A stretch of 64,000 nucleotides of DNA, from positions 1 through 64,000 of the forward strand of contig NZ_JAUIRR010000003.1 of the NCBI RefSeq assembly GCF_030577135.1, given 5' to 3'. The translations under genes were made by a program, and so were the position numbers. Positions 3,014-29,983 of the stretch are shown one piece after another (positions within the stretch are counted from its first letter, which is position 1; each line of letters starts with the position of its first letter). Under the pieces are notes generated by a model. It was not told where the DNA came from. It did not search any database and saw nothing but the letters and a program-made list of their open reading frames with translations. The stretch comes from Sulfurimonas sp. hsl 1-7 (GTDB taxonomy: Bacteria > Campylobacterota > Campylobacteria > Campylobacterales > Sulfurimonadaceae).

Positions 3014-4369
3014 CTATCTTGGGATACCGCCTAATCCACCAGGACCACCCATTTGTCCCATCATAGACTGGAGCTGTTTCATACCGTTTTTACCAGAAAA
3101 CTTCTTAGCCATTTTCCCGGCATTTTTAAACTGCTTGATCATACGGTTCACTTCAACAACTGTTAAACCACAACCTGTAGCGATTCTTTGTTTTCTTGAG
3201 TTGTTAAGAAGATCCGGGTCTTCTCTCTCTTTTAGAGTCATTGAGTTTACCATAGCTCTAATGTTTTTAAGCTCCGATGAGTTATCAAAGTCAAAATCTT
3301 TAATAGCTTTACTCATACCGCCCATACCAGGGATCATTCCCATAATAGAGCTCATTGAACCCATCTTCTTCATAGATTCCATCTGCTCAATGAAGTCGTT
3401 GAAGTTAAACTTCCCTTTTTGGATCTTTTTCGTTAATTTTTTTGCTTGTTTCTCATCGATAACGTTTGCAGTTTTTTCCGCAAGACCTTCAATATCTCCA
3501 AGACCCATTAAACGGTTAACGATACGCTCAGGTAGGAAAACTTCCAAGTCTTCCATCTTCTCACCAAGACCGATAAATCTTAGTGGAACTTCTACTTGAG
3601 ATGACAGTCCAAGAGCAACACCGCCTTTAGAATCACCGTCATATTTTGAAAGGATGACACCGTCAATACCGATTTTTTCTTTAAATGTAGTTGCAGTTCT
3701 TACCGCGTCTTGACCAGTCAGTGAATCTGCTACGTAAAAAATTTCATCAGGGTTTGCTACTTTTTTAACATTTTCAAGCTCTTGCATTAGCTCATCATCA
3801 ATAGCTAAACGACCTGCCGTATCTATTAAAACAACATCAAAGATTTTAGAGTTTGCATACTCTAACGCTGATTTTACTACTTCAACAGGATTTTTAGTCG
3901 CTTCATCTTCATAAAGCTCTACTTCGATCTGTGCAGTAATTTGACGTAACTGTTCAACCGCCGCTAAACGCTGCAGGTCGGCTGCAACGATCAGTACTTT
4001 TTTCTTTTTGTTTTTCAGGTAGTTTGCAAGCTTACCCGTAGTTGTTGTTTTACCAGAACCTTGCAGACCTGTCATTAAAATAGTTGTAGGAGGATTCGGT
4101 GCAAATACAAATCCTTTATTACCGCCAACTTCAAGTAGATCAGTTAATGTCTCACGAAGTGCCTCAAGGAATTGATCTTTTCCGATCCCCTTCTCTTTTG
4201 TACGGTATTCAACTTTAGTGATTAACTCTTTTACAACTTTATGATTAACATCCGCTTTTAATAAACTTTTTTTCAGCTCGTTTAACGCTTTTGATAATGC
4301 TTTTTCATCATCATGAAAACGGATCTTTTTTATCGCACTTGTAAAACTATCTGTTAATGTACCAAACAT
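3014..4369 (-). CDS. ffh: Signal recognition particle protein Ffh
   Basis: Ffh is the SRP54 GTPase that binds signal sequences together with 4.5S RNA and docks with FtsY at the membrane. The 451-residue protein has the N domain, the G domain with P-loop GLQGSGKTTT at residues 101-110 and DTAGR later, and a methionine-rich M domain (MESMKKMGSMSSIMGMIPGM) ending in a Gly-rich tail. It lies upstream of rpsP, a common arrangement. A TATAAT (4402-4407) precedes it. No SRP RNA gene was found in the window. Confidence 0.97.
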   Translation of the reverse strand: MFGTLTDSFTSAIKKIRFHDDEKALSKALNELKKSLLKADVNHKVVKELITKVEYRTKEKGIGKDQFLEALRETLTDLLEVGGNKGFVFAPNPPTTILMTGLQGSGKTTTTGKLANYLKNKKKKVLIVAADLQRLAAVEQLRQITAQIEVELYEDEATKNPVEVVKSALEYANSKIFDVVLIDTAGRLAIDDELMQELENVKKVANPDEIFYVADSLTGQDAVRTATTFKEKIGIDGVILSKYDGDSKGGVALGLSSQVEVPLRFIGLGEKMEDLEVFLPERIVNRLMGLGDIEGLAEKTANVIDEKQAKKLTKKIQKGKFNFNDFIEQMESMKKMGSMSSIMGMIPGMGGMSKAIKDFDFDNSSELKNIRAMVNSMTLKEREDPDLLNNSRKQRIATGCGLTVVEVNRMIKQFKNAGKMAKKFSGKNGMKQLQSMMGQMGGPGGLGGIPR

Positions 4370-4469: not shown

Positions 4470-4985
4470 CTAATTGTTCCAAATATCAATTTTACTGGCT
4501 ATATCTAGCTGTGTAAGATACAGACGCAGGTCAAATTCCACCTGGTGATACTCGCTAAACATATGTTCACACAGTTTATAAAAAGGCTTATTGTGTTCTT
4601 TTTCTTTAAAGTGAGCAAGTTCATGAACAACTATCATCTGTAAAAACTCTTCAGGTGTATTTTTAAACAGAGAGGCAATTCGTATCTCATTTTTTGCTTT
4701 GAGTTTTGAGCCCTGTACTCGAGATATAAAATGGTGTGTCCCCAAAGCGTTATGTATGACATTGATTTTCCCGTCATACACTGCCTTAGAGAGCGGCGAA
4801 GTTTTCTTCATATACTCATTTTTCATCTCTTGTACATATGAGAACAATGCTTTATCGTTTTTATAGCTATGAGGTGTCGGGTATTTATTCGTTAAGTAGC
4901 TCTCAAGCTTGTTTGCATCTATTAGAGCTTGAACTTGTTGTTGTACAGCTTGAGGATAGTGGTTTATATATTTTAATTTTTTCAT
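4470..4985 (-). CDS. YgjP-like zinc metallopeptidase (DUF45/SprT-like)
   Basis: The 171-residue protein carries a clear zinc-protease signature, HELAH at residues 121-125 with a further His at 131, typical of the YgjP/WLM family related to M48 peptidases. There is no signal peptide or membrane segment, so it should act in the cytoplasm. The natural substrate of this family is not established. The start overlaps the DUF188 gene by four bases (ATGA type), so the two are translationally coupled. It ends the long minus-strand chain before ffh. Confidence 0.85.
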   Translation of the reverse strand: MKKLKYINHYPQAVQQQVQALIDANKLESYLTNKYPTPHSYKNDKALFSYVQEMKNEYMKKTSPLSKAVYDGKINVIHNALGTHHFISRVQGSKLKAKNEIRIASLFKNTPEEFLQMIVVHELAHFKEKEHNKPFYKLCEHMFSEYHQVEFDLRLYLTQLDIASKIDIWNN

Positions 4986-19393: not shown

Positions 19394-21715
19394 CTATTTT
19401 ATAGTAATCTTATCTCTACCACTATTTTTTGAAATATACAGAGCATCATCTGCTCTTACAAGACATTTTTCGACATCTTCACCAGCCTGATATACACTGA
19501 TACCCATACTGACAGTTATTTTATAGGTCTTGTTAAAAAGATGTTGAGATACTTTATCTTTTAAATTTTTAGCAAAACTTTCAATATCATCTTTTTCAAG
19601 ATTAGGTGCAATGATCAAAAACTCTTCTCCACCCCATCTACCGATAATATCCGATATTCTCGAGTTTTCTTTTAAAAGTGCACTTAATTCTTGTAAAACG
19701 ATGTCACCTACATGATGTCCATAGGTATCATTAATAAGTTTAAAATAGTCAATGTCTAAGATAATAATCCCAAAACTACCTCCATAACGATCGATTCTGT
19801 TTTTTTCCATACTCAATACTTCATCAAGCTTATGTCTATTATATAACTGTGTTAATTTATCGGTAATCGCTATCTCCTGAAGTGATTCATATGCCACTTC
19901 AAGTTTGTCATTTGCCTCTTGTAAGCGTCCTTTTAAGAGTTGCTGTTTTCTGTAAAAATAATATCCTACTACAAGTATAAAACTGAAAAAAGCAACGACT
20001 TTCCATAAAATAGTATAATCTATCTCTTGATCATATTTTATTGAAATCCATTTATTAAATATTCTTCTATTTTCTTCTTCTGAAAGACTATTTACTGCTT
20101 TTTGTAAAACACTCAATAATAACGGATCGTCATTACGTACACCTATACCAAGCGTCCAGGATTCTTCAATTTTTCCGGTAATTTTCAGTTTACCAATATA
20201 GTTATTTTGTAATTTATAACCAATACTTGCAAGAGTCCCTATATAACCGAACAGTTCTCCATCACTTACCCGTTTGAGTCCGTCATCTATATCTTCAACC
20301 TCAACTATATTCAAAAAGGGGTATTTCATTTTTAAAAGCTCTGCAAAAGCATATCCCTTACATATACCAACTTTTTTCTTTTCTAAATCTTTGATATCAC
20401 TTACAAAAGGTACTTCCAGTTTTGTTGCTACAACTAAAGGTATCACTAAATACGGCGACGTAAAATTCATGTATTCTTTTCTTTTAGGGGTTTCCATCGC
20501 CAAAGAAAAGATATCACATTTACGTTGCTTTGCAAACTCTATAGACTGCGTCCAAGTCTGCGTTGGAAGTACTCTGAAGCTTGTTGCCAGTGTTTTTTCA
20601 AATGCTTTAAAATAATCTGCCGTCATCCCTTCATATTTTCCATCTTTATTGAAATGTTCAAAAGGCATCCAATTAGGGTCAATACACATCGTAATCTCTT
20701 GACGTTTAAGTAAATACTTTTTTTCTTCTGTTGTTAGTTCTGTATCTAAAGCATAATCACTATAGAGTGCTCCGCGAAGATCTATCTCTTTTTGCACTAA
20801 TCCTAAAAGTTTATAAACATCATAAATTCTTTGTAGTTTCTGCTTTTCAACAGTACCTAGTTTATCTGTTGCATAATAAGCTAATTTTTTTAATTCTTCT
20901 GCTTCATAATGGAGTGCTTCTTTTGTCTTATGCAAAGAGTTGTATTTAGTATAGATAAGCTCTACTGTTTCATCTATATGTTCAAAAGCATATTTCCAGC
21001 CTTGTAATGATGCTTTTCTAAAACGCTTTACCTCTTGAGGATTATCCTGTATATATTCTTGACTTGTTATGAGCAGATCGCTGTAAAAATCAAATCCGTA
21101 ATCTTTTGGATTAAAAATAACCGGTTGACCGCCTAAAGATTTTAAAACATATGCCTCATTTGAAATATAAGCAGCTATGAGATCTGTTTTACCGTTTAAA
21201 AGATCTGCAGCCTTAAACGATGGCTGTATAACCTTTACATCTTTAGGCGTAATTCCTTGAGAAAACATCATTGAGAACAATGATATATCTATATCTCTCG
21301 TTGCCATGATTCTCTTATTTTTTACATCCTGGATACTCTTGATATGAGAGCTCTTATCTGCTAATAGGACAAGAGGGCTTGATTGGAAGATCGATGCAAG
21401 ATATACAATCTTCTTGCCGTTTGAGATATCTATTAAAGAAGTTGCTCGACATGTAGCATACTCACTTCTACCTTGAATAACATCATCTTCCATATGGATT
21501 CCATGTTGCCATTCTTTTAGAGTTACGTCAAGACCGGCTTTTTTATAAAAGCCTTTCTCTTTTGCCATAATATAACCGGCAAATTGAAACTGATTTTTCC
21601 ACTGTAACTGTAGAGATACTTTTTTCAAATCTTCTGCGGCAATAACACTGCTAAAGAGTAACAACAGTGCTAATATATTTACAAATCTCACCATCTTATT
21701 TTTCCCGAAGTTCAT
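19394..21715 (-). CDS. Diguanylate cyclase with two periplasmic substrate-binding domains
   Basis: The 773-residue protein has a signal peptide, an NMT1/ThiY-like binding domain (about residues 28-300, starting LQLQWKNQFQFAGYIMAKEK), a second family-3 solute-binding domain (about 335-565, MCIDPNWMPFEHF), one membrane segment (about 575-595) and a cytoplasmic GGDEF domain. The active motif is GGEEF (about 693-697), and an RISD inhibitory I-site lies five residues upstream, so it should make cyclic-di-GMP with product feedback. The ligands are unknown; thiamine-precursor-like and amino-acid-like molecules are typical for the two families. It overlaps the PAS-HD-GYP gene by 20 bases. Confidence 0.88.
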   Translation of the reverse strand: MNFGKNKMVRFVNILALLLLFSSVIAAEDLKKVSLQLQWKNQFQFAGYIMAKEKGFYKKAGLDVTLKEWQHGIHMEDDVIQGRSEYATCRATSLIDISNGKKIVYLASIFQSSPLVLLADKSSHIKSIQDVKNKRIMATRDIDISLFSMMFSQGITPKDVKVIQPSFKAADLLNGKTDLIAAYISNEAYVLKSLGGQPVIFNPKDYGFDFYSDLLITSQEYIQDNPQEVKRFRKASLQGWKYAFEHIDETVELIYTKYNSLHKTKEALHYEAEELKKLAYYATDKLGTVEKQKLQRIYDVYKLLGLVQKEIDLRGALYSDYALDTELTTEEKKYLLKRQEITMCIDPNWMPFEHFNKDGKYEGMTADYFKAFEKTLATSFRVLPTQTWTQSIEFAKQRKCDIFSLAMETPKRKEYMNFTSPYLVIPLVVATKLEVPFVSDIKDLEKKKVGICKGYAFAELLKMKYPFLNIVEVEDIDDGLKRVSDGELFGYIGTLASIGYKLQNNYIGKLKITGKIEESWTLGIGVRNDDPLLLSVLQKAVNSLSEEENRRIFNKWISIKYDQEIDYTILWKVVAFFSFILVVGYYFYRKQQLLKGRLQEANDKLEVAYESLQEIAITDKLTQLYNRHKLDEVLSMEKNRIDRYGGSFGIIILDIDYFKLINDTYGHHVGDIVLQELSALLKENSRISDIIGRWGGEEFLIIAPNLEKDDIESFAKNLKDKVSQHLFNKTYKITVSMGISVYQAGEDVEKCLVRADDALYISKNSGRDKITIK

Positions 21716-22811
21716 TTCTAATAGCTAAAAACTGGTCTAAATGTTCAAAAAACAGATCCACTAACTTAGGGTCAAACTGCTTACCCTTTTCCTCTTTAAA
21801 AAGTTGAAATATTTTTTCATCTTCCCACGCGTTTTTATATACCCTCTCAGATCCCAGGGCATCAAACACATCTGCTAAAGCAGTTATTCGCCCGTAGATA
21901 TGTATATCTTCACCTTTAAGTGCTCTTGGATAACCGGTACCGTCATACTTTTCATGATGTTCATGCGCAACTATCGCTGCCGCTTTTAAAAGTTCACGCT
22001 TAGAGTTTATAAAAAGAGTATGCCCTTTTGTAGCATGTGTTTTCATAATAGCGAATTCTTCTTCAGTCAACTTACCCGGTTTGAGTAAAATCGAATCGGA
22101 AATAGCAATTTTTCCGATATCGTGCATCGGAGAAGCCATACGTAAAAGTTCTATCTCCTCCTCTTCAAGTCCGTAAAGTTTTGCCAGTAGTGCTGAGTAC
22201 TCCGCTACACGTTTTACATGGTAACCAGTCTCTTGAGAACGACTCTCTGCTAGTTCCCCCATTCTCTCAAGGATCTCACGCTGCGTTTCGGTAATCTCAT
22301 TTTGAAGGTTATAAATCTCTGTAACATCTTGTCTAATTGCGATATATTCAACAATGTTGTCATAAGAATCAAGTATAGGCTTTATTGTTGCCTGAACAAT
22401 ATAGGTACTGCCATCCTTTTTTCTATTTTTTAAGATCCCTTGCCACGTTTTTTTGTGCCTGAGGGTACCCCACATCTCTTTATATAGATGTGATGGCATA
22501 TCTTCATGTCTTACAATTTTATGAGGTTTGCCTAAAAGTTCCTCTTGAGTATAGCCACTGATTTTACAAAACTGTTCATTCACGTAAATGATGACCCCTT
22601 TTGCATCTGTTTTTGAGATAATAGTCCCTTCATCAACGGCATCTTTATATTGGCGCAGTAATAGTTCATTATCATTCAAGTAACCTTGCAGTTGTTGATT
22701 TGCATGGTATAAATCAAGTGTAGTTCGCTCTAGGATATGTTCAGTTTCCTCTCTTGCTAGGCGTTCTCGCTCCAACATTCTAAGTAAAACATCTTTAGGA
22801 AGGTTATGCAT
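21696..22811 (-). CDS. PAS-HD-GYP cyclic-di-GMP phosphodiesterase
   Basis: The 371-residue protein has an N-terminal coiled segment, an Aer-type PAS domain (about residues 55-175, with GKPHKIVRHEDMP) and a full HD-GYP domain (about 180-370). The HD pair (MHDIGK near residue 228), THATKGH and the GYP motif (DGTGYPRALKG) are intact, so hydrolysis of cyclic-di-GMP is expected. It has no membrane segment. It overlaps the H-NOX gene by eight bases and the GGDEF gene by 20, which suggests that the three are produced together. Confidence 0.9.
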   Translation of the reverse strand: MHNLPKDVLLRMLERERLAREETEHILERTTLDLYHANQQLQGYLNDNELLLRQYKDAVDEGTIISKTDAKGVIIYVNEQFCKISGYTQEELLGKPHKIVRHEDMPSHLYKEMWGTLRHKKTWQGILKNRKKDGSTYIVQATIKPILDSYDNIVEYIAIRQDVTEIYNLQNEITETQREILERMGELAESRSQETGYHVKRVAEYSALLAKLYGLEEEEIELLRMASPMHDIGKIAISDSILLKPGKLTEEEFAIMKTHATKGHTLFINSKRELLKAAAIVAHEHHEKYDGTGYPRALKGEDIHIYGRITALADVFDALGSERVYKNAWEDEKIFQLFKEEKGKQFDPKLVDLFFEHLDQFLAIRNELREK

Positions 22812-23385
22812 TGTTTTTTACCTCAAAGACATACACCTGACACTCTATATTGTTAATTACTCTATAACGTTTGGTTTCATTCATCGTTAGTCTTGAAGAG
22901 TCATTAAAATACTTTAAACATCCACGCATTAAACCACATACAAAACCTGGAATATTTCTAGGACTAGCATATTCTATAACAATATGTTCATCCCCTTTTC
23001 GTTCGATAATGAACTTAGGGAATTTAGCGTCCGGATATAATTTTTTAAGTTCATCAAAATGAATTACATTAAGCTTTTCAAGAAAATCGTAAGGGTTATT
23101 TACATGTAAAGGGGTATTTGCCCCTTTGTAGGAGTGTTTAAACATATTTAAAAGATATTTAAAAGCATACTCTCCGAATGCTTCTATAACCTTTTCTCGG
23201 GAGTTGTCAAATAATCTTGTAGATCCGTCAATGAGTGAGAACAGGTACTCACTACTATAGTTAGCAGCGCTGGAAAAACCACCTTTGTTTGGATACTCTT
23301 TCTCATTTAAAAGTTCATCTAAAGTAGTGTACCCAAACTTATCTTTTATAAAATCTATATATGTTCTAAATATTATTCCACGCAT
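22804..23385 (-). CDS. H-NOX (heme NO/O2-binding) sensor protein
   Basis: The 193-residue protein matches the stand-alone H-NOX fold in length and key residues: the proximal heme ligand is probably His109 (LNVIHFDEL), and the heme-propionate motif YxSxR is Tyr139, Ser141, Arg143 (YASPR). H-NOX proteins bind NO, and some O2, and pass the signal to a partner in the same operon, often a GGDEF/EAL/HD-GYP enzyme or a histidine kinase. Here it overlaps a PAS-HD-GYP gene, so control of cyclic-di-GMP breakdown by NO is likely. O2 binding cannot be judged. Confidence 0.85.
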   Translation of the reverse strand: MRGIIFRTYIDFIKDKFGYTTLDELLNEKEYPNKGGFSSAANYSSEYLFSLIDGSTRLFDNSREKVIEAFGEYAFKYLLNMFKHSYKGANTPLHVNNPYDFLEKLNVIHFDELKKLYPDAKFPKFIIERKGDEHIVIEYASPRNIPGFVCGLMRGCLKYFNDSSRLTMNETKRYRVINNIECQVYVFEVKNNA

Positions 23386-23437: not shown

Positions 23438-25831
23438 CTACTTAGGAATTGTACTTAATGGTTTACTACAGTGATACCCTTGAGAGTAACCAATCCCTAA
23501 CTCTTTTACTTTTAGAAGTATCTCTTCATTCTCAACAAATTCGGCAATTGTTTTAATCCCCATTTTTTTAGCGAAATCAACAATAGTTGAGACAACAAGT
23601 TCTGCATCTATATTAGTATCAATATCTTTAATTAACGAACCGTCAATTTTAATATAGTCGGTTTTTAAACGCATCAGGTATTCAAAGTTACTGTATCCGG
23701 TTCCAAAATCATCAATAGCTATTTTACAGCCGTAATTTTTCACATTACGAATAAACTCTAAAACCTCATCAAAGTTCTCTATAGATTCCGATTCTACGAT
23801 CTCAAAAACAACACGTTCACCGATACTGTACTTTTGTAACATTTTACAAATAAAACTTTTGATCTCATCATTTAAAATATCTTCTATCGTCAAATTGAGT
23901 GAAAACTCTACATCTTTCTCATGAAAAACCGCAAATGATTTTTCAATCATAATCTGAGTAATCTCAATATAGTGTTTTGTTTTTTTCGCAATATCCAGAA
24001 AGAAAAACGGTGATATCAACTGTTCATTATCTTTAAGTCTTACCAAACACTCATATTTTTCCCATTTACCGTTTTTATTATTAACAATCGGCTGAAAAAC
24101 GGGAACTATATTATCATTTGCTATCGCCTCTTTTATTTTCTTAGTCCATTTGATATTGTTTTTATACTCATCATTTAGCGAGATATCGTCATGATAGGTT
24201 ACAATATCTTGATTATGTCTTTTTGCAATTCTCAGTGCCATATCTGCCGTTGTTAAAAGTTTCTCTTTTGGCTCATAAGAGATTGACATTGAAAAGTTAA
24301 AAGTGATCAACTCTCCGTCTATATCTATCTGTACTTTTGAAATCTCTTCCTTTAAAGCCAATAAAGCATTGCTAAATACTTTTGGTTCAATACGAGGATG
24401 AAAGATTACATACTCATCACCTTGAAGATGGTACACTTGAAGCTCTAAGTCGCACTTACAACTACCCATCTTCTGACCAAACTCTTTGATCACATAATCT
24501 CCAACTTCATGACCGTAAAAATCGTTAATTTGGGAAAAATTGTCTATATTTAGAATCGCCAAGGCACCTTGTGTACTCTCTTGTATATCGTTTACAAGTT
24601 TGTATCTACTTCCAAGACCGGTTAAAAGATCGGTATTTAACATCTCGTCAAGTTGTTTTTGTTGTTCTATCATCTTTGTAACATCATGTCTTACTGCAAT
24701 GTATTCAATGATGTTATCCTCTTCATCCAAAATAGGCAAGATAACAATATCTACCCAATAATCCTCTCCAAATTTATCTTTATTTTTTAGTGTTTGTTTC
24801 CACACTTTTTTCGCTTCAATTGTTTTCCACAGATCGCGAAAGAGTGACTTTGGATTATCAGGGTGTCTTAAAATATTATGAGGACGTCCTAATACTTCGG
24901 TTCTAGTATATCCGGTAATTCTGCAAAAGTTGTCATTTACATAGGTGATATTTCCGGTTCGATCTGATTTACTTACAATACTTGATTCATCCATAGCAAG
25001 TTTGTGACTTTTAAAAAGGGAGAGTGTTTTTTCTAACTCAATTTCAACCTCTTTTTGATGTGTAATATCTTGAATAGTACCAACAGTTTTGATCGCATTA
25101 CCATCTTTATCGTAATAATGTTCCCCTGTTTCTTCAACATACTTTATCCTGTTATCTTTCATCAATAATCTATGTTGAATAAGATACTTCTTTTTTTTCT
25201 CTAAAGAGTTTGCATACGCTTTATCAACTAATTTACGGTCATCAGGATGTACTGCATTTAAAAACAACTCATACGAAGGGGTTGTAATCGCTTTATCTAG
25301 CTCAAAAAGTTTATATACTTCATCTGACCAAAAGAGTTGATCATTAGCTACATCATAATCCCAGTTTCCAAGGTTTGCCAAAGCCTGAGCAGCCTGAAGC
25401 TTCTCCTCATTCTTAATTGCCTTTATAAGATTCTGTTCACCCTCGGTAACATCAATAAGATAACCTATAAAATGGGTAATATTTTCATCTTCATCGTAGA
25501 AAATTGTTGTAGTGTCTTGAACCCATCTATCTTCACCATTTCCATTTTTTATTCTGTAAGGTTCATGCGTAAAAGATTTTTCTCGTTTTTTACAAGCATT
25601 TTGCACTTCATTTTTTACACGCTCAATATCATCCTTATGTACTAAATCTATATACACAAGTTCACCCTCTAAAAACTCTTTAGGGTCATAATGAAAATTT
25701 TCTTTTATATTTCCGGAAACTGTTTCAATACTCCAGTTAGCATCGTTTTTCCAAACAAATGAAACCATCGGTCCCAAGTTGAAAAAATCACTGGTTATAA
25801 AAGAAAAATAATCTTTCAATTTTGTGCGCAT
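23438..25831 (-). CDS. PAS-GGDEF-EAL protein, probable cyclic-di-GMP phosphodiesterase
   Basis: The 797-residue cytoplasmic protein contains three PAS domains (about residues 15-135, 145-265 and an Aer-type one at 275-395 with GRPHNILRHPD), then GGDEF and EAL domains. The GGDEF signature is degenerate (LQGDEY, near residue 470), so cyclase activity is doubtful. The EAL domain keeps its essential residues: Glu of ECL in YECLVRL, FSLNLTIED, DDFGTGYSN and YIKIDGSLIK. It probably degrades cyclic-di-GMP. It lies 52 bases upstream of the H-NOX gene on the same strand. Confidence 0.88.
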   Translation of the reverse strand: MRTKLKDYFSFITSDFFNLGPMVSFVWKNDANWSIETVSGNIKENFHYDPKEFLEGELVYIDLVHKDDIERVKNEVQNACKKREKSFTHEPYRIKNGNGEDRWVQDTTTIFYDEDENITHFIGYLIDVTEGEQNLIKAIKNEEKLQAAQALANLGNWDYDVANDQLFWSDEVYKLFELDKAITTPSYELFLNAVHPDDRKLVDKAYANSLEKKKKYLIQHRLLMKDNRIKYVEETGEHYYDKDGNAIKTVGTIQDITHQKEVEIELEKTLSLFKSHKLAMDESSIVSKSDRTGNITYVNDNFCRITGYTRTEVLGRPHNILRHPDNPKSLFRDLWKTIEAKKVWKQTLKNKDKFGEDYWVDIVILPILDEEDNIIEYIAVRHDVTKMIEQQKQLDEMLNTDLLTGLGSRYKLVNDIQESTQGALAILNIDNFSQINDFYGHEVGDYVIKEFGQKMGSCKCDLELQVYHLQGDEYVIFHPRIEPKVFSNALLALKEEISKVQIDIDGELITFNFSMSISYEPKEKLLTTADMALRIAKRHNQDIVTYHDDISLNDEYKNNIKWTKKIKEAIANDNIVPVFQPIVNNKNGKWEKYECLVRLKDNEQLISPFFFLDIAKKTKHYIEITQIMIEKSFAVFHEKDVEFSLNLTIEDILNDEIKSFICKMLQKYSIGERVVFEIVESESIENFDEVLEFIRNVKNYGCKIAIDDFGTGYSNFEYLMRLKTDYIKIDGSLIKDIDTNIDAELVVSTIVDFAKKMGIKTIAEFVENEEILLKVKELGIGYSQGYHCSKPLSTIPK

Positions 25832-25922
25832 AACTGTTCCCTTTTAAATATATTATACAATTCTTAATTTATTTTTTTAATTATATTATTTATATCATAA
25901 TATAGCTTTTAAATCTCATTTA

Positions 25923-26501
25923 TTATAACAATGTTTCTAAAGAGGTCATCTTTTTTACATTCATCGGCTTTATCCCTTTAGAGATTAAAGAGTTTTTCAA
26001 CCCCTCCCCTATTTGTGAACTGACAAAAAGATTGACATTATACTCTGCAAATATTTTCGGTAAAACGATTGCCAGTTTCTTTTTATCGCTATATACGGGA
26101 TTTTCCAGTTTTTCGAGCAAAGAGATATTCCCCGGTGCCATTTTATATATAAATATATATTGCTCCATCGGTGTGATCTTCTCAAAATTCTCTTCGTTCT
26201 CCATACAAATAGCTACAACAAGTTCCTCTTTATCATCCTCTATCTCTATCTTATAGCCGCCCACTATCCCTAAAGATAGTTTATATCGGGCATTTTTTAG
26301 GATTCTTGTAAATGTCGGACGGGAGATTCCCATCTTTTGGGCAGCCTCCTCTTGATACAATCCTAAAAGATCCATCAGATATATCGCTTCGATCTCCTCA
26401 TGCAGTAAAGTAACTTTCCCCTCCGGCTTCACGCCTTCGGGGACAAATTTTTTATACTGCGGTTTAAAATTTAAAGTTCTGCTACTCTTTGTTCTTGCCA
26501 T
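25923..26501 (-). CDS. DUF134-type HTH regulator with C-terminal NifX/NifB-like domain
   Basis: The 192-residue protein has an N-terminal DUF134-like region with a sigma-like HTH (EEAAQKMGISRPTFTRIL, about residues 52-70), and a C-terminal half resembling the dinitrogenase iron-molybdenum cofactor-binding (NifX) fold (VAICMENEENFEKITP and later KIFAEYNVNLFVSSQIGEG). It diverges from the cydAB operon, which ends with another NifX-type protein. It may sense a metal cluster or redox state and control cyd through the repeated ACATATGT sites between them. That role is inference. Confidence 0.75.
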   Translation of the reverse strand: MARTKSSRTLNFKPQYKKFVPEGVKPEGKVTLLHEEIEAIYLMDLLGLYQEEAAQKMGISRPTFTRILKNARYKLSLGIVGGYKIEIEDDKEELVVAICMENEENFEKITPMEQYIFIYKMAPGNISLLEKLENPVYSDKKKLAIVLPKIFAEYNVNLFVSSQIGEGLKNSLISKGIKPMNVKKMTSLETLL

Positions 26502-26550
26502 GATTTACCCTTTAATATTACAATCTTAGCAGATGTTAATTTAAATTTTC

Positions 26551-26595
26551 TTGACATATGTTCATAATGATGGCATAATTTGGACATATGTTCAT
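26551..26595 (+). promoter_or_regulatory. cyd operon promoter with two identical operator-like repeats
   Basis: TTGACA (26551-26556) and CATAAT (26574-26579) are spaced by 17 bases, a good sigma-70 promoter. The 13-base sequence GACATATGTTCAT occurs twice, at 26553-26565 and 26583-26595, exactly 30 bases apart (about three helical turns). Each copy contains the palindrome ACATATGT. The first overlaps the -35 and the second covers the predicted start site. That layout fits a repressor, most simply the divergent DUF134 protein. Confidence 0.7.
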
Positions 26596-26607
26596 TAAGG
26601 AATAGTT

Positions 26608-26817
26608 ATGAATAATATAAAATTAATTTATAACTTCTATCTGGACGGGTTTAAAAACATGAAAACAGGTAAGACTTTATGGAAGATAATCTTCTTAAAG
26701 CTGGCTGTAATTTTCCTGTTTTTAAACTACTTTATTCACGATAGATCGTTAGATACAGAGTATAAAACAGAAGATACGAAAATCAATTTCGTATATAACA
26801 ATTTAATAGGAGAATAA
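26608..26817 (+). CDS. DUF4492 small membrane protein of the cytochrome bd operon
   Basis: The 69-residue protein has one membrane helix (about residues 27-44) after an amphipathic, basic start (YNFYLDGFKNMKTGKTLWK), matching DUF4492, a family found just upstream of cydA in Campylobacterota and Bacteroidetes. It ends one base before the cydA ATG. An oxidase assembly or accessory-subunit role is likely but not established. Confidence 0.8.
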   Translation: MNNIKLIYNFYLDGFKNMKTGKTLWKIIFLKLAVIFLFLNYFIHDRSLDTEYKTEDTKINFVYNNLIGE

Positions 26818-26818
26818 G

Positions 26819-28345
26819 ATGGAAGAACATTTAGTCGATTGGTCTAGAGCTCAGTTTGCTCTGACTGCAATCTATCACTTTTTATTTGTTCCACTTACAC
26901 TTGGGCTTGGATTTATAGTCGCTATTATGGAGACTATTTATGTAAAAACAGGTTCACAAGAGTGGAAAAAGATCACACAGTTTTGGATGACACTTTTTGC
27001 GATCAACTTTGCCATCGGTGTTGCAACAGGACTTATTATGGAGTTTGAATTTGGTACAAACTGGGCAAACTACTCTTGGTTTGTAGGTGATATTTTCGGT
27101 GCACCTCTTGCTGTTGAGGGTATACTCGCCTTTTTTATGGAATCTACATTCTTTGCAGTAATGTTTTTCGGCTGGAATAAAGTTGGTAAAAAGTTTCACC
27201 TCCTTTCAACATGGCTTGTAGCGATTGGTTCAAACCTTTCAGCTTTATGGATCCTTGTTGCAAACGGCTGGATGCAATATCCTGTGGGTATGACATTTAA
27301 CCCTGACACTGTTAGAAACGAAATGACAAACTTTTGGGACGTACTTTTCTCACCTGTTGCAATCTCTAAATTTTTACATACGATCGGAAGCGGTTATGTG
27401 ATCGCAGCTCTTTTTGTTGTAGGGATCAGTGCATACTATCTTCTTAAAAAGAGAGAGGTATCTATTGCTAAAAAATCTATGATCGTAGGTGCTACGTTTG
27501 GACTTATCACATCTCTATTTTTAACACTTAGCGGTGATGAATCTGCACACCAGGTAGCTCAACACCAACCTATAAAACTTGCGGCTATGGAGGGATTGTA
27601 TGAGGGAAGAACTGAAGCCGGAATCGTGGCCGTTGGTATGTTAAATCCTAAAAAAACTTTAACGAATGAAGCAGAGCCTTACCTATTTGAACTTGAGGCT
27701 CCATATGCTCTTTCACTGCTTGGATATCATGATATAGATGCTTTTGTACCGGGACTAAACGATCTTGTATATGGGAATAAAGAACGCGGTATTATGAGTG
27801 TAGAAGAGAAAATGGCTCGCGGTAAGATCGCAGTTACAGCTTTAGAAGACTACAAAGAGGCGAAAAAAGCAAACAATGAGCAAAAAGCTTTTGAAGCAAA
27901 ACAGATTCTTGATCAGGATATGAAATATTTCGGGTACGGGCATATTAAAGCACCTGAAGATGTAGTACCGCCTATTGGACTTACATTTTACGCATTTCAC
28001 ATCATGGTTTCACTGGGCGGATGGTTCTTGGTACTCTTTAGTGTACTGCTGTACCTCTCAACTAAAAAGGATATCTCACGCTATACACTGATCTTAAAGT
28101 CAGCAGTGCTTTCTATCCCTCTTGGATATATTGCGGCTGAAGCGGGATGGATTGTCGCGGAAGTTGGTCGTCAGCCATGGGCTATTCAGGATTTAATGCC
28201 TGTAAATATTGCCGCAACTCAAATAGCGACAACAAATATACAGATCAGTTTTTGGATGTTTGCATTTTTATTTACGCTTCTGCTTGTAGCAGAGATAAAA
28301 ATTATGCTCAAACAGATTAAAATCGGACCAAATGGAGGACACTAA
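26819..28345 (+). CDS. cydA: Cytochrome bd quinol oxidase subunit I
   Basis: CydA oxidises quinol and carries hemes b558, b595 and d. The 508-residue membrane protein shows a His20 heme ligand (AIYHFLFVPLT), the SKFLHTIGSGY His ligand region, the YAFHIMV Met ligand region, and the GRQPW motif (EVGRQPWAIQ). The periplasmic Q-loop is long (about residues 250-380). The enzyme supports microaerobic respiration and resists NO and sulfide. Its stop codon lies close to the cydB ribosome site. Confidence 0.96.
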   Translation: MEEHLVDWSRAQFALTAIYHFLFVPLTLGLGFIVAIMETIYVKTGSQEWKKITQFWMTLFAINFAIGVATGLIMEFEFGTNWANYSWFVGDIFGAPLAVEGILAFFMESTFFAVMFFGWNKVGKKFHLLSTWLVAIGSNLSALWILVANGWMQYPVGMTFNPDTVRNEMTNFWDVLFSPVAISKFLHTIGSGYVIAALFVVGISAYYLLKKREVSIAKKSMIVGATFGLITSLFLTLSGDESAHQVAQHQPIKLAAMEGLYEGRTEAGIVAVGMLNPKKTLTNEAEPYLFELEAPYALSLLGYHDIDAFVPGLNDLVYGNKERGIMSVEEKMARGKIAVTALEDYKEAKKANNEQKAFEAKQILDQDMKYFGYGHIKAPEDVVPPIGLTFYAFHIMVSLGGWFLVLFSVLLYLSTKKDISRYTLILKSAVLSIPLGYIAAEAGWIVAEVGRQPWAIQDLMPVNIAATQIATTNIQISFWMFAFLFTLLLVAEIKIMLKQIKIGPNGGH

Positions 28346-28346
28346 G

Positions 28347-29480
28347 ATGGGTTTTGGAGATTTAGAACTTTTAACATTACAACAATACTGGTGGTTCATC
28401 GTTTCACTGCTTGGTGGGCTTTTTGTATTTATCATGTTTGTCCAGGGTGGACAAACACTGATCGATACACTCTCGGAGAATGAAACTGAAAAGACGATGC
28501 TCATTAACTCAATCGGTAGAAAGTGGGAACTTGGGTTTACTACCCTCGTACTTTTTGGCGGGGCTCTTTTTGCAGCTTTTCCACTCTTTTACTCAACTAG
28601 CTTCGGCGGTGCGTACTGGGTATGGCTTGCAATTTTATTTTGTTTCATTATCCAGGCGGTAAGTTACGAGTATAGAACAAAGCCTAACAACTTTTTAGGG
28701 CAAAAGATTTATGAGAGTTTTTTAAAAATAAACGGTAGCCTTGGGGTATTTTTACTCGGTGTTGCTATCTCTACATTTTTCAGCGGTGCAGAGTTTCACC
28801 TAAACGACAATAATTTTGTTCTTTGGGATAACTCGTTAAGAGGTCTTGAAGCACTTGCAAACCCTTATAACTATTTACTAGGTTTTGCTTTAGTTTTTTT
28901 AACAAAGATCTCAGGCGCGCTTTACTTTTTAAACAACATTGACTATCAGCCTATTCGTGAAAGAGCGGTGAGTTCAATTAAGTTCAATATGCCTATCTTC
29001 CTGATATTTTTCGTAGGGTTTACAGCTTGGCTACTTTTAAAAGACGGTTACGCGGTAGATTCTAACAGTGTTGTTGTGTTAGAGCACCACAAGTACCTCA
29101 ACAACTTCCTTGAAATGCCTGTAGTTCTCGGTATGTTTATTGTGGGTGTAGCTATGGTTGTGATCGCCGTATTTGTTGCCGTTGTATATGGATTTACTTG
29201 TTGTATCAGAACTGCGGGAGTCGGAACAGTTGTTACCGTTACAGCCATTTTACTCAATGTGGGTTATAACAATACCGCATACTACCCTTCACTTACAGAC
29301 TTGCAAAGCAGTTTAACAATTATGAATTCATCTGGGAGTCACTACACACTGATGGCTATGAGTTATGCTTCATTGATGGTACCGTTTGTTTTAGCATATA
29401 TCGCTTATGCTTGGTACTCAATGGACAGAGTAAAAATTACAAAAGAAGAGATTGAAGCACCAGATGCTCACAACTACTAG
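28347..29480 (+). CDS. cydB: Cytochrome bd quinol oxidase subunit II
   Basis: CydB is the partner membrane subunit of CydA. The start is taken as the ATG at 28347, eight bases after a GGAGG that lies at the end of cydA; a frame from 28332 would begin inside that ribosome site. The protein has 377 residues with about nine membrane helices and typical segments (QYWWFIVSLLGGLFVF, RAVSSIKFNMPIFLIFF). It is followed six bases later by a 37-codon gene. Confidence 0.95.
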   Translation: MGFGDLELLTLQQYWWFIVSLLGGLFVFIMFVQGGQTLIDTLSENETEKTMLINSIGRKWELGFTTLVLFGGALFAAFPLFYSTSFGGAYWVWLAILFCFIIQAVSYEYRTKPNNFLGQKIYESFLKINGSLGVFLLGVAISTFFSGAEFHLNDNNFVLWDNSLRGLEALANPYNYLLGFALVFLTKISGALYFLNNIDYQPIRERAVSSIKFNMPIFLIFFVGFTAWLLLKDGYAVDSNSVVVLEHHKYLNNFLEMPVVLGMFIVGVAMVVIAVFVAVVYGFTCCIRTAGVGTVVTVTAILLNVGYNNTAYYPSLTDLQSSLTIMNSSGSHYTLMAMSYASLMVPFVLAYIAYAWYSMDRVKITKEEIEAPDAHNY

Positions 29481-29486
29481 GAGTCT

Positions 29487-29600
29487 ATGATGGAATATTT
29501 AGCAGAATTGGGTTGGCTGAGTCTTTGGCCAATCGTCATATATTTAGGTTGGAAGTTTAGTGTAAAAAATGTATTAAAATTTGAGGAGAAAGAGTCATGA
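29487..29600 (+). CDS. 37-residue single-helix peptide, CydX-like candidate
   Basis: A short frame begins at ATG 29487 (or 29490) and ends in TGA at 29598-29600. It starts MMEYLAELGWLSLWPIVIYL, so one membrane helix, and ends in a charged tail (FEEKES). It follows cydB by six bases with a GGAG ribosome site and shares ATGA with the next gene, so it is translated within the operon. Position and size match the small third subunit CydX/CbdX of bd oxidases, but the CydX sequence signature is not evident. Confidence 0.65.
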   Translation: MMEYLAELGWLSLWPIVIYLGWKFSVKNVLKFEEKES

Positions 29601-29983
29601 TCGCAATTCCCGTAAAAACGAACAATGAAAATCCGGCACTCAGCCCGCTCTTTGGCAAAGCAAAATGGTTTGCATATGTAGATAGAGATGGTAATATCTC
29701 AATTGAAAAGAACGAAACGCAAAGCGGTCGTGTAGTAGTTGATAATATGATCGCAAAAGGTGTAGATACTATTGTATTTAATCATATGGGAGCAAACCCT
29801 TTTATGCTTCTGCAAAAGGCAAATATGGAGTGTTTCTACGGTGGTGATGAGAGAATCTTGCTGCAAGATTTACTCTCTAATCTACAAAATGAAGAACTTG
29901 TAAAAGTTGATAGCACAAATATGACACAATATCTTGAAGAGGGTAAACACGATCACTCTCATGATCATTCACACCATCATTAA
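29597..29983 (+). CDS. NifX/NifB-type (dinitrogenase iron-molybdenum cofactor-binding) protein with His-rich tail
   Basis: The 128-residue cytoplasmic protein has the NifX-like fold pattern: MIAIPVKTNNENPALSPLFG start, GRVVVDNMIAKGVDTIVFNH, and a GGDERILLQDLL helix. It ends in a histidine-rich tail (HDHSHDHSHHH) that should bind metals. No nitrogenase genes are nearby, so a role in metal or Fe-S handling linked to cytochrome bd is more likely. Its ATG overlaps the stop codon of the 37-residue gene. Confidence 0.8.
   Translation: MIAIPVKTNNENPALSPLFGKAKWFAYVDRDGNISIEKNETQSGRVVVDNMIAKGVDTIVFNHMGANPFMLLQKANMECFYGGDERILLQDLLSNLQNEELVKVDSTNMTQYLEEGKHDHSHDHSHHH

Follow-up and report, generated by a model that had tools for sequence, protein, structure and literature searches.

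What controls the genes for cytochrome bd in this Sulfurimonas genome, and is the controller encoded by the gene that faces them? The question arises at positions 26551-26595 of the window, the whole 64,000-nucleotide stretch of DNA that was analysed. The original prediction held that a 13-base word is exactly duplicated there, 30 bp apart, with its copies on the -35 hexamer and the start site of a TTGACA-17-CATAAT promoter, facing a gene for a DUF134 helix-turn-helix (HTH) protein with a NifX-like half whose DNA target had not been characterised. Whereas that prediction saw one promoter, the comparisons summarized here support a predicted DUF134 operator that would be a family-wide code. The claim of an uncharacterised target fits the literature as far as open-licence PMC papers go, where none of the titles listed announces a DNA target site for DUF134 / UPF0251 (COG1342, PF02001); UPF0251 turns up there in a mutation table, and the papers naming COG1342 or PF02001 are, by title, on other subjects. 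Among the entries listed for oxygen and cyd expression in Sulfurospirillum, nothing was usable, and a term search of one review of respiratory regulation in Campylobacterota found cydAB and cytochrome bd in the reference list only (PMC6682613).

The repeat and the genes around it

The promoter and the operators predicted on it are laid out as follows.

26551..26564, + strand: predicted operator 1, TTGACATATGTTCA, with core CATATG at 26555-26560; overlaps the -35 hexamer
26551..26556, + strand: -35 hexamer TTGACA, common to operator 1
26574..26579, + strand: -10 hexamer CATAAT, from the promoter scan
26581..26594, + strand: predicted operator 2, TGGACATATGTTCA, at the expected transcription start

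Both copies of the 13-mer GACATATGTTCAT are exact (26553-26565 and 26583-26595, 30 bp from start to start), just as had been claimed, and they form the sole exact 13-mer direct repeat in the window with starts 13-60 bp apart, in a scan from which low-complexity words were excluded. The promoter, which runs from TTGACA (from 26551) over a 17-bp spacer to CATAAT (to 26579), matches the consensus at 11 of 12 positions and is the best among nine promoter-like sites in 25700-27000, where shuffled sequences lead one to expect 5.8. Copy 1 overlaps the -35 hexamer and copy 2 occupies bases 4 to 16 past the -10 hexamer, where transcription should start, so that the coordinates agree with the predicted placement given this deduced start. 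The type of operator 1 is kept where an orthologous regulator faces a cyd-type or NifX-type promoter; operator 2 is conserved as well, with some promoters keeping only a CATATG variant.

Within the whole genome (2,281,222 bases, 15 contigs), GACATATGTTCAT occurs exactly at these two places only and with one mismatch at three more. Up to two mismatches, it is found 47 times on the forward and 43 times on the reverse strand, compared with 39 and 47 for the reversed control, and since these counts are close to the control level it is the exact pair alone that stands out. A larger regulon in this genome was considered and rejected: the palindrome TGAACATATGTTCA with up to two mismatches occurs 20 times per strand as against 11 in the control, and the best of these away from the cyd promoter, at 4556-4569 of the window, falls within a reading frame and was put down to chance. 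The target claimed is therefore the cyd operon only, and the pair looks like a real operator.

The genes on either side are the following.

25923..26501, - strand: DUF134-FeMo-Co fusion, predicted repressor, 192 aa (Pfam)
26608..26817, + strand: DUF4492 small protein, first gene of the cyd operon (82.7 bits, cut-off 27)
26819..28345, + strand: cydA, cytochrome bd subunit I (550.7 bits, cut-off 26.2)
28332..29480, + strand: cydB, cytochrome bd subunit II (231.2 bits, cut-off 35.6)
29490..29600, + strand: 36-aa ORF, possible CydX-like peptide, between cydB and the NifX-like gene
29597..29983, + strand: stand-alone NifX-like (Nitro_FeMo-Co) protein (38.2 bits, cut-off 26.3)

With CydA and CydB both above their Pfam cut-offs, the operon is identified as one for cytochrome bd. 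The coordinates of cydB are counted from the first ATG of its frame; its true start may be a later ATG just past the cydA stop. The 36-aa ORF has no Pfam match, and nine ORFs resembling it occur in 152 fetched regions; its position and look make it a possible CydX-like peptide. The stand-alone NifX-like gene probably closes the operon. Two genes downstream of the DUF134 regulator lies an H-NOX gene (haem-NO-binding, PF07700, 104 bits; 22804-23385, - strand), whose neighbours are genes of the PAS-GGDEF-EAL (23438-25831) and PAS-HD (21696-22811) types; it may connect the cyd region to NO.

Distribution of the site and of DUF134 genes

The order-wide comparison supports the operator and its link to DUF134. 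Specifically, exact pairs of the 8-mer ACATATGT (pattern ACATATGT-13 to 26-ACATATGT) were found in 64 of 398 genomes versus 5 for the reversed control, and the regulator protein was matched in 118, partial and DUF134-only matches included. Pair and DUF134 occur together in 62 genomes, the pair alone in 2, DUF134 alone in 56 and neither in 278 (Fisher P 9e-37, uncorrected for relatedness; many of the genomes are close relatives, and the counts are not independent events). The two pairs among the 280 genomes without a DUF134 match are an intragenic one (L250) and an intergenic, unexplained one (L263). Fifty-six of the 72 pairs lie at most 250 bp upstream of a DUF134 match.

The upstream regions themselves give a similar picture. 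Of the 138 DUF134 matches, some are partial or weak (E up to 0.001); the 250 bp upstream were compared for 136, the other two having too little sequence. There, ACATATGT is the commonest 8-mer, present in 114 regions and missing from 22, before long fused forms (54/63) as well as others (60/73), and its density reaches 5.1 per kb as opposed to 0.024 per kb in the remainder of the regions. The palindrome CATATG is found in 125 of the 136 (11 are without it), followed by TTTAAA as the next six-base palindrome with 84. Two CATATG cores stand 18-40 bp apart in 87 regions, and the spacings of neighbouring cores fall into two classes, 22-23 bp (16) and 29-36 bp (75), with none at 24-28 bp and 8 others. 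Furthermore, 58 of 71 loci from named records, nearly all with Campylobacterota titles, carry ACATATGT within 300 bp upstream, two of the 71 regions (L303 and L312) having at most 60 bases there. The original prediction had staked itself on the repeat recurring beside DUF134 or cyd genes in relatives, and so it does: the pair is kept across the order, and the CATATG palindrome is found in other phyla.

Within the genus, the operator tracks regulator-adjacent cyd promoters and not cyd promoters per se. DUF4492 yields 17 matches among 80 genus genomes, 16 of them above cut-off, and three of the 17 loci have the pair: those of this genome and of G031, which adjoin a DUF134-FeMo-Co gene, and that of G008, where the contig ends inside a divergent frame beginning MSREKS, like DUF134 starts. 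Thirteen of the others are without ACATATGT (the G014 locus has 90 bases upstream) and one has a single site at -271; most DUF4492-bearing genomes of the genus are without the operator. A DUF134 frame is near only one of these 14 loci, that of G019, whose DUF4492 match is below cut-off and whose region lacks ACATATGT and carries, some 730 bases upstream, two CATATG cores at a distance of 22 bp. At the genome level, DUF134 is matched above cut-off in six of the 13 (G007, G014, G019, G027, G029, G033) and below it in G011, and G023 has no match; the other five (G429, G433, G441, G447, G458) were outside the whole-genome search.

The 16 of 72 pairs that are distant from DUF134 genes, in 15 regions, were all inspected. 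Orphan pairs are followed by FeMo-Co or MinD-type genes in L254, L257, L259, L260 and L261, by cyd in L262 and by a POR-domain gene in L251 and L252, and are without a clear target in L253 (before a DUF2202 gene), L255, L256, L258, whose region includes a cyd operon that does not lie behind the site, and G421 (within L162). In G327 the pair lies on the cyd operon and the DUF134 gene, which has a different divergent partner, on a second contig; both loci are close to contig ends. For L251, a 1189-aa PFOR gene was discarded as the target as it ends ahead of the site.

Several observations were made alongside. The pair of L251 and L252 (about 4001-4041) stands past the end of a PFOR gene and about 145 bases upstream of the POR-domain gene, which encodes 187 aa in an oxidoreductase operon, and DUF134 is located elsewhere in both genomes. 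The L258 pair (4001-4060) precedes a short cysteine-rich frame starting MEALLACNNNKCVKKEDC. Three proteins that look alike (175-201 aa, hydrophobic at the start) are encoded beside operators (L128:3356-3961, - strand; L187:4409-4936, + strand; L255:3446-3979, - strand), and the two that were scanned (L128 and L255) gave no Pfam match. Divergent from the DUF134 gene of G327 (L124 / L064), one operator precedes a frame starting MTNEKVTPTPYRIKRYWFYLLVTVVAIVLPWITIDG, which we take to resemble an oxidase accessory protein of the CcoG type.

The operator code, TGARCATATGYTCA, recurs in other phyla. At DUF134 loci above the Pfam cut-off, the CATATG core is present in 25 of the 30 loci read in the phylum of G466 (44 genomes passed the cut-off), in 10 of all 15 in the phylum of G463 and in 3 of all 6 in the gamma class, one of these three (L373) being without palindromic flanks. 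Loci below the cut-off gave 0/11, a weak control, as numerous match starts apparently fall within other frames. As a separate observation, a variant, TGTGCATATGCACA, was seen at the other-phyla DUF134 matches L389, L400, L403, L406-L409, L419, L421 and L428, none of which has the TTGACA spacer arrangement described below. The family occurs in bacteria and archaea, with two methanogens among the controls.

DUF134 as the candidate reader of the site

Pfam and structure comparison agree with the earlier description of the divergent gene product as a DUF134 HTH protein with a NifX-like half. The window protein matches DUF134 / UPF0251 (PF02001) over residues 2-87 (64 bits, cut-off 27) and Nitro_FeMo-Co (PF02579) over residues 115-189 (31.7 bits, cut-off 26.3), with the HTH at about 37-75 and the NifX-like domain at about 92-192. 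An AlphaFold2 model (pLDDT 89.2, pTM 0.76) was compared with known structures, and residues about 92-192 align with TM1816, TA1041, PH0822, NafY, NifX and ORP at Z 11.5-12.7. Viral integrases and RuvC were matched by the C-terminal half too, ranked under the FeMo-Co folds, a likeness that we attribute to a common arrangement. For the N-terminal half, the fold search shows a resemblance to sigma region 4 (Z about 7), and in sequence this region alone is matched, below the sigma-70 cut-off (20 vs 25.7 bits). The fusion also stays below the NCBIfam cut-offs for NifX (TIGR02663, 18 bits vs an equivalog cut-off of 112) and MrpORP (16.4 vs 450 bits). With E up to 0.1 allowed, 14 Pfam families were matched, and they include neither the Rrf2 domain of IscR and NsrR nor a sugar-binding domain such as the large effector-binding domain of SorC/DeoR, whose place is taken by Nitro_FeMo-Co in the C-terminal half.

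How such a protein might read the site is suggested by kinship with DeoR. The sequence profile of the regulator's HTH matches the DNA-binding domain of Bacillus subtilis DeoR (7bhy) over 38 residues (E 8.7e-4), a link seen at the profile level, with DeoR absent among the fold-search matches listed. R61 and R66, invariant across 24 aligned proteins (alignment A1), align with R34 and R39 of DeoR, a mapping of our own from the alignment and the five-residue distance, and the domain is thereby assigned to the DeoR-type HTHs with base-contacting arginines. The DeoR study describes, at limited resolution, contacts of R39 with bases T14 and G4 and of R34 with base T12 in the left operator half, base-specific contacts in the TTGAACA part of the operator, and, for an earlier 15-bp structure, contact of R39 with the backbone alone on one side (PMC11229326). 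As given there, the operator contains TTGAA-6-TTCAA on the left and ACATATGTTCAA on the right (PMC11229326).

Co-variation offers a second, likewise indirect connection between protein and DNA. A Gly after SRxTF goes with a G beside CATATG (21/22 vs 8/121, in three genome groups), and a Ser/Thr in SR-X-T goes with a C one base further out (23/45 vs 3/98). Their weight as proof was scaled down once they had been mapped onto a tree of 139 sequences from which the helix was left out. Of the five residue changes for Gly, three share their edge with a base change (P about 0.0005), but a test of gain rates is negative (base gains on 1/41 Gly-lineage edges vs 5/235, P 1.0). For Ser/Thr, one of five edges is shared (P about 0.2), and base gains fall on 6/83 vs 3/193 edges (P 0.024). 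As such, the sequences hint, weakly after tree correction, that bases flanking CATATG co-vary with recognition-helix residues.

A predicted cytochrome bd switch and its relation to known systems

The original prediction had offered a metal-cluster or redox switch for cytochrome bd as a model. On the comparisons made here, DUF134-FeMo-Co is probably a one-component repressor of the cyd operon that acts through the operator pair and would sense through its NifX-like half. The N-terminal HTH, probably in dimers, would bind the palindromes (T)TGAACATATGTTCA(A), one dimer covering the -35 hexamer and a second the start site, and would thereby exclude RNA polymerase from the operon DUF4492-cydA-cydB-ORF36-NifX and perhaps affect the regulator's own promoter too. 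The NifX-like half would most likely report a metal-sulfur cluster or thiol state: the loaded or reduced sensor would repress, and loss of that state via oxygen, NO or metal shortage would free the expression of cytochrome bd and the NifX-like protein. The oligomeric state (dimer or tetramer), the ligand and the sign of the ligand's effect are conjectural in this model. The neighbouring genes and orphan-pair targets (cyd, FeMo-Co/MinD-type, POR) point to metal-sulfur metabolism. CydA is nearby for 20/63 long forms and 6/75 others, and MinD-type ATPases with ferredoxin inserts are near 26/75 other forms and 0/63 long forms; none of FeMo-Co, MinD-type or CydA is nearby in 12/63 long and 15/75 others. 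Going by gene content, oxygen or NO stress would be a natural trigger.

A serious competitor, given somewhat less than an even chance, is that the protein binds the operators, carries no cluster and senses via a single-Cys thiol switch or by touching the separately encoded NifX-like protein of the operon. In the window protein, Cys99 is the only Cys and there is one His, and a Cys lies at residues 97-101 in 53/63 long forms. An invariant Cys as the sole sensor was rejected, since nine of the 63 have none, including G186, which is divergent from cyd (a tenth row without Cys, L135, has a stop preceding that point). The contact version gains from the proximity of FeMo-Co genes: 105/138 DUF134 matches (50/63 long, 55/75 other) have a stand-alone one no more than 4 kb away. 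Against both versions, the fold is that of cluster chaperones, and the sites of several genomes precede Fe-S ATPase or other FeMo-Co genes.

It is unlikely that the bound protein activates cyd, or both activates and represses it. Some activators act at the -35 region, where operator 1 lies. Operator 2, however, covers the expected start, and the geometry elsewhere argues the same way: among cyd-type and NifX-type promoters, TTGACATATG(T/C)CCA or TTGACATATGTTCA forms the -35 and a second palindrome lies over the start (degenerate in L141 and L166), and outside Campylobacterota 16 of 41 operators are a single palindrome, TGAACATATGTTCA or TGAGCATATGCTCA, that fills the 16- to 18-bp spacer between TTGACA-like and CATAAT-like hexamers, in the phyla of a MAG labelled Aminicenantes and one labelled Ignavibacterium. 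Operators in either position would block polymerase, and it is from this geometry that repression of cyd by DUF134-FeMo-Co is preferred to activation. An unlinked regulator that binds ACATATGT, with DUF134 merely adjoining, is very improbable: although co-variation and the DeoR match are all that ties the protein to the bases, the site follows DUF134 across phyla and neighbourhoods, for short and long forms alike, and hardly any genome without a DUF134 match holds the pair. A chance repeat can be dismissed, as near matches at control level say only that there is no large regulon, while the exact pair is unique and conserved adjoining DUF134, with the order-wide, upstream and genus contrasts all against chance.

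The repressor model stays in front, and a wider generalization is put forward tentatively: DUF134 could be a widespread repressor class with one CATATG-palindrome code across phyla and flanks set by two helix residues, its fused NifX-like domain serving as a metal-sulfur cluster sensor. If so, a nitrogenase-cofactor chaperone fold would have become a regulator's sensor. Cluster damage or supply would then bear on cytochrome bd and on FeMo-Co and MinD-type Fe-S proteins, and two genomes would add a second pyruvate/2-oxoacid:ferredoxin oxidoreductase operon to these targets. In any case, an orphan regulator family gains a predicted, scannable operator and predicted base-reading residues, and cytochrome bd in Campylobacterota gains a candidate controller. 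Additionally, roles of stand-alone NifX-like/ORP-like proteins outside nitrogen fixation become testable, because the same fold is fused to the regulator and encoded in operons behind the operators.

How, then, does this putative switch compare with known systems? IscR and NsrR are iron-sulfur repressors, that is, examples of cluster-bearing control of stress respiration or cluster assembly, and the logic proposed here is like theirs; the domain differs, Rrf2 not being among the Pfam families matched. NifX, NafY and ORP are cofactor-handling proteins and are not known as DNA-binding regulators; the domain in the window shares their fold over about 96 residues and, unlike them, is part of a predicted DNA-binding regulator. 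With B. subtilis DeoR (SorC family, 39-bp operator), the HTH shares the ISRPT motif, and the published operator shares the frame TTGAA-6 bp-TTCAA and the placement of two operator halves at the promoter. The partner domain, in contrast, is NifX-like here, whereas DeoR has a large domain that binds a sugar-phosphate effector, and the cores are spaced 22-23 or 29-36 bp apart here versus about 22 bp in DeoR by our own count. Finally, ORP-type genes, whose products have the FeMo-Co fold, are under dedicated transcriptional control in Desulfovibrio as well. The promoters of those ORP operons are reported to be sigma54-dependent and to need IHF (PMC3897727), whereas the predicted operators described here lie on sigma70-type promoters.
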